Notes under the pieces: model-generated | What the model saw: only the letters and a program-made list of their open reading frames with translations | Databases searched by the model: none | What the model was told of the DNA's origin: nothing | Program-made: the position numbers and the translations under genes | Shown: positions 2,938 through 5,515 of the stretch, piece after piece | How positions within the stretch are numbered: the stretch's first letter is position 1 | Layout: each line of letters begins with the position of its first letter | NCBI GenBank assembly: GCA_015486965.1 | Contig: WFQQ01000157.1 | Location: 1-36,703, forward strand | Length of the DNA: 36,703 bases | Source: Desulfurellaceae bacterium | GTDB taxonomy: Bacteria > Campylobacterota_A > Desulfurellia > Desulfurellales > Hippeaceae | Direction: 5' to 3'

Positions 2938-4017
2938 ATGAGAGATTACAGGATTCTCGCCATAGACCCTGGCTCCACCTCGACCAAGGTTGGAATTTTT
3001 ACAGGTGGGGAATTGAAAAAGGAGAGTGTGGAGCACAAAAAAGAGGTTCTTGAGCAGTTCAGCACTGTTATTGAGCAGAAAGGTATGAGGGTTGAGGCAA
3101 TCAGGACTTTCCTTTTGAAGAACGGTTTGGATGGTGTAAAGTTTGATGCTACCGTTGGCAGAGGAGGCCTCTTAAAGCCCATCGATGGCGGTGTTTATAT
3201 GGTTGATGGAGCAATGCTAAAGGATCTTAAAGAGGGCAGGTATGGGGTGCACCCCGCAAATTTGGGTGGTATATTAGCCTACGAATTTGCATCACTGTTT
3301 AACTGCCCTGCCTTTGTTGTTGATCCCCCAACTATTGATGAGATGGACAGTGTAGCAAAATTATCGGGTTTAAAGGAGATTGAAAGAAAAAGCAAGTTTC
3401 ATGCCCTGAACCAGAGGGCAACAGCTAAGAAGGCGGCGGAGCTTTTGGGAAAAGATTACAGAGATGTTAACCTTATAGTTGCCCACATGGGGGGTGGAGT
3501 TTCTGTCGGTGCTCACAGGAGGGGCAGGGTTGTTGATGTGAACAATGCGCTCGATGGCGATGGTCCTTACTCTGTGGAGCGCTCTGGTGGATTGCCTTTT
3601 GGAGACCTACTAAGACTTGTGCGTGATGGTGAGTACAGTGTAGATGAACTTATGTATAAGTGCTTAAAGAGGGGCGGAGTTTACTCCTATCTCGGTCTTA
3701 CTGATATGAAAAAAGTGGAAGTAATGGTTGAGAATGGAGATGAGTTTGCAAAACTCGTTGTGGATGGATTTATCTATCAGGTGGCAAAGGAGATAGGAGC
3801 TTTATCTTCTGCTCTTTCTGGTTCTTTAGACGGTATCGTTTTAACAGGAGGGCTTGCAAAGAGCAGATATATCGTTGATAACCTTAAGAAAAGGGTTTCT
3901 TTTCTGGCTCCTGTTTTTGTTTTTGAGGGTGAGTTTGAGATAGAGGCTTTGGTGGATGGAGCTTTAGGGGCTCTGAAGGGAGAAGTTAAAATAAAGCGTT
4001 ATGAGCGGGTGGAGTGA
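2938..4017 (+). CDS. buk: Butyrate kinase (butyrate/isobutyrate/branched-chain acid kinase)
   Basis: This 359-aa ASKHA-fold acetokinase-family protein opens with the phosphate-1 motif ILAIDPGSTSTK. AHMGGGVSVGAHRRGRVVDV near residue 182 is the butyrate-kinase substrate/nucleotide motif, and VLTGGLAKS near 301 is the adenosine motif. It interconverts butyryl-phosphate (or a branched-chain acyl phosphate) plus ADP with the free acid plus ATP, giving substrate-level phosphorylation. The ATG directly abuts the beta-subunit stop, and the phosphotransbutyrylase fusion starts one base after its TGA, so the operon encodes oxidoreductase, acyl transferase and kinase in metabolic sequence. Length matches the family. 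Confidence 0.93.
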   Translation: MRDYRILAIDPGSTSTKVGIFTGGELKKESVEHKKEVLEQFSTVIEQKGMRVEAIRTFLLKNGLDGVKFDATVGRGGLLKPIDGGVYMVDGAMLKDLKEGRYGVHPANLGGILAYEFASLFNCPAFVVDPPTIDEMDSVAKLSGLKEIERKSKFHALNQRATAKKAAELLGKDYRDVNLIVAHMGGGVSVGAHRRGRVVDVNNALDGDGPYSVERSGGLPFGDLLRLVRDGEYSVDELMYKCLKRGGVYSYLGLTDMKKVEVMVENGDEFAKLVVDGFIYQVAKEIGALSSALSGSLDGIVLTGGLAKSRYIVDNLKKRVSFLAPVFVFEGEFEIEALVDGALGALKGEVKIKRYERVE

Positions 4018-4018
4018 T

Positions 4019-5515
4019 ATGAATAATATAGGTGAAAATATTAAGGCAGTAATGGAGAAGAAGGAGGTAGATGCTCATCTACTTTCGAGGCTGACCGGTA
4101 TAGATGTTGAAGTTATACAGGGACTTATAGACGGGAAAGTGGAGCCTATGGTTTCAGATATATTGAAGATAGCCAATGTGCTTGGTGTTGACACATCCAC
4201 CCTGTTTTTTGGCAGAGCTTTTGAGGACAGGAGAGCGACAAAGGTCTCTCCCGATGAGCGTGTTAAAGTAAAACGAAGGGATGGTCTGAAGTATGAAAGC
4301 CTCGCCCCCTATTACATTGGAAAACATATGGAGCCTTTCGCCATAGAGGTTTACTCAAATGAAAACCCAAAGATAAGTAAGCACAGTGGAGAGGAATTTT
4401 GTTATGTTTTGGAAGGCAAGTTAAAAATTACAGTGGGTGATGAGGAGTTTGTGTTGAACCCTGAGGACTCCCTCTATTTTGACTCTTCTTTCCCGCACAG
4501 CATAACCTCACTGGGTGGAGTTTCAAAGGCAATTGCAGTTATATACAATCCTGGCTCAATGGTTCATGTTGCAAGAAGTGGAAAGATGCGGGATATCATA
4601 CAGGCTGCTAAGATGCTTGAAAAAAGGAGCATCTCTCTTGTATGTCCAGATGACCTCTCTTTGTCCGCAGTGAATAAGGCAATAGAGGAAGGTATAATAG
4701 ATAATGTTTATTTGGTTGGAGCCAAAGACAAGATAGGGACAATGTGTTCTAACTCTCTTATCTTTAAAAACAACTACATTTACGAATATATTGAAAAGAA
4801 GGATGAAGAGTATGAACCGTCTTGTGCAAAAAGAGGAGTTGCCTTGATCAGGGAAGGTAAGGCACAGATGGTCATGAAGGGCAAGATAAACAGTGTTTTC
4901 TTCATGAAGGCTGTGCTTGATAAAAAAGAAGGCATAGGCACAGAGAGAAGGCTCTCGCTTGTTAGTATATTTGAACTTCCAAACCTGAACAGGCTGATAT
5001 TTTTGACAGACCCCGCCATAAACCCTGAACCATTCAAGGATAAAACACTGAAAACAGCGATTGATATTATCAAAAATGCGATAGATGTGGCAAAAAGCCT
5101 GGGTGTTGTAAGACCCAAGGTTGCCTTGCTGGATGCAAACGAAATGCCCTCAGAGAGCATACCCACTACTATTTATGAGAAGAAGCTCTCTGAGATGGAG
5201 TGGGAAGATGCCGATGTCTATGGACCTTTGTCTTACGACCTTGCACTGTATGAGGATGCGGTGAAGATAAAGGGTTTAAAGGATAACCCGGTTGCTGGAA
5301 AGGCTGACATTTTGGTTGTTCCCCATATCGATAGCGGAAACTTTTTATACAAGGCTTGGGTTTACACGATGGGAGCTGAGGTTGCCAACATAGTGCTTGG
5401 GGCAAAGGTGCCCATAATATTTACCTCACGAAGCGATAGTGAAATCATCAAGTTTCTAACCATCTGTGCAAGTGCCATCTATAGCGACTATCTTGAAAAG
5501 ACTAAGAAAACTTAA
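4019..5515 (+). CDS. ptb: HTH-cupin-phosphate butyryltransferase fusion protein
   Basis: Three parts are visible in this 498-aa protein. Residues ~1-65 are a Cro/XRE-type helix-turn-helix (LLSRLTGIDVEVIQGLIDGK, then ILKIANVLGVDTSTLF). Residues ~85-185 are a small cupin barrel (KHSGEEFCYVLEGKL, PEDSLYFDSSFPHS). Residues ~200-498 are a phosphate acetyl/butyryltransferase domain (PTA_PTB; KGKINSVFFMKAVL, PKVALLDANE, ADILVVPHIDSGNFLYKA). The catalytic domain moves the acyl group between CoA and phosphate and feeds butyrate kinase upstream. The N-terminal half is the architecture of one-component sensors, so the enzyme may also bind DNA or sense a ligand; that is inference. ATG 4019 is preferred to ATG 4001 because GGTGGAG (4008-4014) precedes it. 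The 3' end overlaps convergent prmC by 14 bp. Confidence 0.88.
   Translation: MNNIGENIKAVMEKKEVDAHLLSRLTGIDVEVIQGLIDGKVEPMVSDILKIANVLGVDTSTLFFGRAFEDRRATKVSPDERVKVKRRDGLKYESLAPYYIGKHMEPFAIEVYSNENPKISKHSGEEFCYVLEGKLKITVGDEEFVLNPEDSLYFDSSFPHSITSLGGVSKAIAVIYNPGSMVHVARSGKMRDIIQAAKMLEKRSISLVCPDDLSLSAVNKAIEEGIIDNVYLVGAKDKIGTMCSNSLIFKNNYIYEYIEKKDEEYEPSCAKRGVALIREGKAQMVMKGKINSVFFMKAVLDKKEGIGTERRLSLVSIFELPNLNRLIFLTDPAINPEPFKDKTLKTAIDIIKNAIDVAKSLGVVRPKVALLDANEMPSESIPTTIYEKKLSEMEWEDADVYGPLSYDLALYEDAVKIKGLKDNPVAGKADILVVPHIDSGNFLYKAWVYTMGAEVANIVLGAKVPIIFTSRSDSEIIKFLTICASAIYSDYLEKTKKT

Follow-up and report, generated by a model that had tools for sequence, protein, structure and literature searches.

In Pseudomonas, standalone proteins that combine an XRE-type helix-turn-helix (HTH) with a cupin are local repressors of neighboring metabolic genes (PMC7901475). 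ErfA, PsdR, and PauR (PMC7901475) are built in this way, as is the family described by the NCBIfam model PuuR. The phosphotransbutyrylase (Ptb) of C. acetobutylicum (PDB 7vg9; PMC9706017) is paired with a butyrate kinase (Buk), and its residues listed as conserved or active are D217, K228, N250, K254, S279, R280, D282, S283, K186, E285, and T286 (PMC9706017). Relatives of both families occur in fusions. In the MaeB hybrid malic enzymes, a PTA-family domain that lacks the critical catalytic residues acts as an acyl-CoA sensor, and in such a fusion allosteric control can reach across long distances (PMC7902834). In BzdR, an XRE domain is fused to an enzyme-derived domain: DNA binding was kept and catalysis lost, so that the shikimate-kinase part is now a non-enzymatic effector domain (PMC3602430).

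The window analyzed here (the whole 36,703-nucleotide stretch of Desulfurellaceae contig WFQQ01000157.1, assembly GCA_015486965.1) encodes an HTH–cupin–Ptb fusion. Its Ptb part resembles the C. acetobutylicum enzyme in fold (TM 0.94), sequence (34% identity), catalytic and CoA-site residues, and the presence of a Buk partner, but the chain has 188 extra N-terminal residues, which form the HTH–cupin, and the octamer-interface positions A194, M195, K198, and D211 are changed. The N-terminal part shares the domain order and the cupin metal-site residues of the XRE-cupin factors; in contrast to them, it is joined to a complete enzyme, it has lost invariant HTH residues and a conserved recognition helix, and the por operon here already starts with a canonical standalone member. 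MaeB likewise fuses a PTA/PTB-family domain to an unrelated one and sets a precedent for control between fused parts, but the Ptb domain of our fusion retains the catalytic residues that the MaeB sensor lacks, and sensing would fall to the added domain instead. Relative to BzdR the outcome is apparently the opposite, a regulator turned enzyme accessory. In the mainly non-subscription literature that we searched, we found no report pairing a cupin with phosphotransbutyrylase and a helix-turn-helix, or with phosphate butyryltransferase. Both halves come from well-known families, and their fusion is more than chance.

Domain architecture of the fusion

The reading frame at 4019-5515 (+) starts 1 bp past the buk stop codon and runs uninterrupted from its ATG (4019) to its stop codon (5515), giving a single chain of 498 residues that is kept in seven genomes. 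Its N-terminus is an XRE-type five-helix domain with a degenerate DNA-contact surface (residues 3-63; 4025-4207), for which the Pfam models HTH_26 (E 2e-4) and HTH_3 (E 4e-4) both score slightly under their curated cut-offs. The predicted helices span residues 4-14, 19-26, 30-37, 45-55, and 59-64, the third of them (4106-4129) lying at the position of the recognition helix. The cupin domain follows (about residues 91-176; 4289-4546; Cupin_2 E 5e-12), and it retains an H122/E126/H160 triad. The PuuR model aligns to residues 4-166, covering HTH and then cupin within one chain. A short, flexible linker (residues 177-190; 4547-4588; pLDDT <50 at 178-182) leads to the Ptb catalytic domain (residues about 190-494; 4589-5500). 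There, Pfam PTA_PTB matches residues 251-475 (E 1e-28; 100.8 bits against a cut-off of 24), and the NCBIfam Ptb models span residues 190-490 with E 1e-68, under their curated cut-offs; TIGR02706 gives 218 bits against a cut-off of 410.5, so the curated Ptb equivalog score is not reached. The best-scoring NCBIfam model is a Ptb model, yet the protein is, by these scores, divergent.

AlphaFold2, supplied with an alignment of the 7 fusions, 13 standalone HTH-cupins, and 22 standalone Ptbs, predicted five helices at the N-terminus, then a cupin barrel and a Ptb fold (mean pLDDT 89, pTM 0.70). When this model was compared with the PDB by Foldseek, the top matches were 7vg9, 3tng, and 1yco, and the best, C. 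acetobutylicum Ptb (7vg9), had the TM score given above, normalized by target length. The original prediction of an HTH, a cupin, and a complete Ptb domain in one chain of 498 residues is therefore borne out by the open frame, Pfam and NCBIfam, AlphaFold2, and the occurrence in seven genomes. An assembly chimera is ruled out by the same full-length fusion in those seven genomes and in two gene contexts. PADLOC returned weak HTH matches and nothing else.

That prediction had itself raised an internal translation start that would split the chain into regulator and enzyme, a possibility that was checked by Shine-Dalgarno energies. The linker contains two candidates, Met181 and Met190; the latter, which is invariant, coincides with the point at which standalone Ptbs begin, as would be expected if free Ptb were made alongside or in place of the fused chain. 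Pairing at the true start is -7.7 kcal/mol, but over the orthologs Met190 reaches only -2.5 to -4.3 kcal/mol, against a background for in-frame ATGs of -2.2 +/- 2.3; neither methionine has a Shine-Dalgarno sequence above background, and for Met190 this holds in every ortholog. Also against a split gene are the open frame and purifying selection through both the HTH and the cupin (dN/dS for the closest ortholog pair: HTH 0.06, cupin 0.04, Ptb 0.08). We consider a free Ptb hardly credible, and one fused product appears by far the likelier reading of these sequences.

Distribution and gene context

Among the 25 genomes of its phylum that we searched, the full-length fusion is present in 7, from three genera of one family (a sample of seven sequences, mostly draft MAGs); the other six proteins are 66-79% identical to that of the window. 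The hosts are heat-loving, sulfur-reducing relatives of Hippea, and related records bear the names Hippea sp., Desulfurellaceae, or Desulfurellales. We found no full-length match in 361 genomes outside the phylum and smaller phylum samples (roughly 400 together, an incomplete sampling), and no plasmid match covering 80% of the query. A scan of 84,980 genomes with single-protein patterns, which detects close relatives only, yielded four matches, all in Hippea, Desulfurellaceae, or Desulfurellales. Where the flanks of standalone ptb genes in other genomes were examined, none adjoined an HTH-cupin gene.

Across the same 25 genomes, buk and the fusion occur together without exception: all seven genomes with the fusion have buk, and all 18 without it lack buk. 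In the window, buk (2938-4017, +; NCBIfam butyr_kinase E 7e-137, above cut-off) is preceded by genes for the beta (porB/vorB-like; 2065-2937, +) and alpha (porA-like; 909-2054, +) subunits of a 2-oxoacid:ferredoxin oxidoreductase, both identified by Pfam and NCBIfam, and by the 3′ portion of a gene encoding a GltD-like oxidoreductase/PorD-ferredoxin fusion (1-912, +), which is cut by the contig start and is about 545 residues long in relatives. This joining of PorD to a GltD-like NAD(P)/FAD oxidoreductase is also seen at L019 3784-5418 and, by gene order, in L124 and L129. Four genomes of the window’s genus, counting the window’s own, have the fusion after buk in a por operon with the order standalone HTH-cupin, porG, GltD-like/porD, porA, porB, buk, fusion. 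In the three genomes of the other genera, buk and the fusion instead follow a gpmA-like gene (histidine phosphatase superfamily), a LUD-domain gene, and a DUF815 AAA ATPase gene, an arrangement that occupies L020 7947-12340 and L022 7517-11930. The buk-fusion cassette stays together in both contexts. Counting the fusion near por and buk, as the original prediction had proposed, thus found it in 7 of 25 genomes, always with buk, and in the por operon in four of the seven.

Catalytic residues of the Ptb domain

All seven fusions keep D407, K418, N441, K445, S470, R471, D473, and S474, which correspond to D217, K228, N250, K254, S279, R280, D282, and S283 of C. acetobutylicum Ptb. The active-site motif S470-R471-S472-D473-S474 (5426-5440) matches S279-R280-A281-D282-S283 of that enzyme, as mapped via PMC9706017. 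The positions of K186, E285, and T286 are not kept, but these are variable in standalone Ptbs too. No other domain of the chain is as well conserved as the Ptb core, whose mean identity over all seven proteins is 81%. The retained residues indicate that the fusion probably has phosphotransacylase activity, in line with the complete catalytic domain that had been proposed. Its substrate or kinetics may differ, because three normally conserved Ptb positions are altered in every fusion (H314L, A387E, and D401Y).

The only other PTA_PTB protein that we found in the seven genomes is a malic enzyme–PTA hybrid (in the window genome, G000 contig C35:9-800), and Buk is the only protein of the acetate kinase family found there. 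With its catalytic and CoA residues preserved, and with no second Ptb and no acetate kinase found in these genomes, the fusion very probably works as the partner of Buk.

Divergence of the HTH and the standalone regulator of the por operon

In the fusions, the HTH can still be recognized by its fold, but it makes a poor DNA-binding motif. Against HTH_3 the fusions score 16-23 bits (20.9 for the window protein, where the cut-off is 23) and standalone HTH-cupins 43-66. R12, T18, S34, Q35, and E37 (fusion numbering) are 100% conserved in 13 standalone HTH-cupins of the phylum and lost in all seven fusions, and, in five genomes that carry both kinds of protein, pairwise identity over residues 30-41 is 39% for the fusions, whereas it is 100% for the standalone por-operon regulators. 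The por-type and liv-type standalone paralogs are more alike in their HTH (0.45) than in their cupin (0.27), a trend that is reversed when the fusion is compared with the por-type regulator (HTH 0.28, cupin 0.39). The net charge of the HTH did not discriminate clearly. Purifying selection still acts on the HTH in the closest pair, so the domain is maintained as a fold. DNA binding may persist in some species, since the orthologs L020 and L022 pass the HTH_26 cut-off and helix 3 of L020 is polar (NKNTINDILDGK), and a drifting recognition helix could also mean changing operators. On balance, the fused HTH is probably not a DNA reader.

In the Hippea group, the por operon is headed by a canonical standalone HTH-cupin (in the window genome L023 169-768 (-), on G000 contig C159; also L082, L083, and L085-L088). 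The window-genome copy lies at the end of its contig and adjoins ymdB and rny; because this arrangement matches that of the relatives, C159 is probably the upstream continuation of the window contig. The promoter of the standalone gene is conserved, with TTTGACA and A-rich ACTAAAAAT repeats in several genomes. The standalone protein is a likely autoregulator of por; the ACTAAAAAT repeat itself we treat as a lead only. No operator common to both types of buk-fusion operon was found.

Read by eye, two other HTH-cupin genes of the window genome adjoin an acetate-transporter-like gene (L024 4941-6134) and branched-chain amino-acid ABC transporter-like genes (L025 5694-10883), respectively. In two genomes of other phyla, an HTH-cupin (L124 3792-4403 (-) and L126 3590-4189 (+)) is likewise followed by porG, and the L124 locus continues with GltD-like/porD and porA. 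These por-heading proteins fit the local-repressor pattern of XRE-cupins (PMC7901475).

In a tree of HTH-cupins, the fusions form one clade with support of 100/99 on a long stem. The clade lies beside, not inside, the por regulators and joins a long-branched sequence from genome G103, a join that the program flagged as possibly false. The separate clade rules out the fusion’s HTH-cupin as a recent duplicate of the por-operon protein.

The cupin and the octamer face of Ptb

Among the fusions, conservation is higher in the cupin than in the HTH, and all seven retain H122, G124, E125, E126, G133, D150, and H160. Hydroxypropylphosphonate epoxidase (HppE; PDB 1zz6, 4j1x) is also an HTH-cupin chain and matches our protein in sequence (E 1e-6). 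Its cupin is itself the catalytic iron site, whereas the fusion has a separate Ptb domain. On the Ptb side, the positions that correspond to A194, M195, K198, and D211 on the octamer face of the C. acetobutylicum enzyme are mainly occupied by K, K, E, and Y in the fused proteins, whereas standalone Ptbs retain A194 in 19 of 22 cases and D211 in 21 of 22. Because the cupin triad is kept and the octamer face of Ptb is changed, the data fit an added module that took over some of the assembly role and may relay a signal from a ligand.

Discussion

We lean toward reading this protein as an active Ptb with Buk as its partner, in which a repurposed HTH-cupin serves as a sensor domain, an assembly domain, or both. 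The single chain, the intact Ptb residues, the pairing with buk, the cupin triad, the degraded HTH surface, and the altered octamer face all support it at the sequence level. In the scheme that we infer, where enzyme activity, substrate, ligand, loss of DNA binding, and allostery are all conditional, the 2-oxoacid:ferredoxin oxidoreductase would make acyl-CoA, and Ptb and Buk would convert it via acyl phosphate to carboxylate and ATP, or run in the reverse direction. The N-terminus of the fusion would be a former XRE-cupin transcription factor. Its cupin, with a 2-His/1-Glu pocket, has probably retained the ability to bind a metal, a small acyl or oxo-acid ligand, or both, and its HTH, without a DNA-reading surface, may survive as a folded helical module that aids subunit pairing. 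The ligand state of the cupin could then set the activity or assembly of Ptb. A more specific version is tentative: the retired XRE-cupin may sense a metabolite of the Por-Ptb-Buk pathway and gate acyl-phosphate synthesis, and the canonical XRE-cupin at the head of the operon would handle transcription.

The mechanism that the original prediction had favored is a trigger enzyme that shuts down its own operon through a DNA-binding HTH. In such a mechanism, acyl-CoA or acyl phosphate on Ptb and/or a cupin ligand would be the signal. The intact XRE fold of the predicted model, the two orthologs that pass HTH_26, the local repression exerted by the Pseudomonas HTH-cupins (PMC7901475), and HTH–enzyme fusions such as BzdR (PMC3602430) are all in its favor. 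We nevertheless find it doubtful: the invariant HTH residues are gone from every fusion, the recognition helix has drifted, and the por operon already has its own dedicated HTH-cupin with a conserved promoter, whose repeat motif is absent upstream of the L020 and L022 buk-fusion operons except for one match with 1 mismatch. Thus the three-domain architecture and the intact enzyme stand, and the DNA-binding autorepressor does not fare well. Of the alternatives in that prediction, control of catalysis by the cupin is the best remaining one and is compatible with the sequences.

The HTH-cupin could, however, be a mere oligomerization device, a structural add-on whose own dimer contacts replace lost Ptb octamer contacts and which senses nothing. 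This would suit the rewriting of the octamer face in all fusions and the loss of a DNA-contact surface from a fold that was kept; a pure scaffold, though, has no need of the cupin triad and surrounding residues retained throughout, nor would it lead us to expect a cupin more conserved than the HTH, and we regard it as unlikely. A further reading is a chain that is chiefly a regulator, its Ptb part a dead sensor domain. MaeB (PMC7902834) and BzdR (PMC3602430) show that domains of enzymatic origin can end in this way, but here the catalytic residues are intact in all seven proteins, the Ptb core is the most conserved part of the chain, and the fusion co-occurs strictly with buk in genomes where no other Ptb was found, which makes a dead Ptb very improbable.

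If an active Ptb with a repurposed HTH-cupin is the right reading, the fusion would be a natural case of a regulator becoming the control or assembly domain of an enzyme, the reverse of the enzyme-to-regulator evolution exemplified by BzdR. The window’s group would offer a clean comparison, with fused and standalone HTH-cupins in one operon, and could allow the ligand of the por-associated HTH-cupins to be identified. It would also open a route to understanding how substrate-level phosphorylation or acid activation is controlled in the relatives of Hippea.
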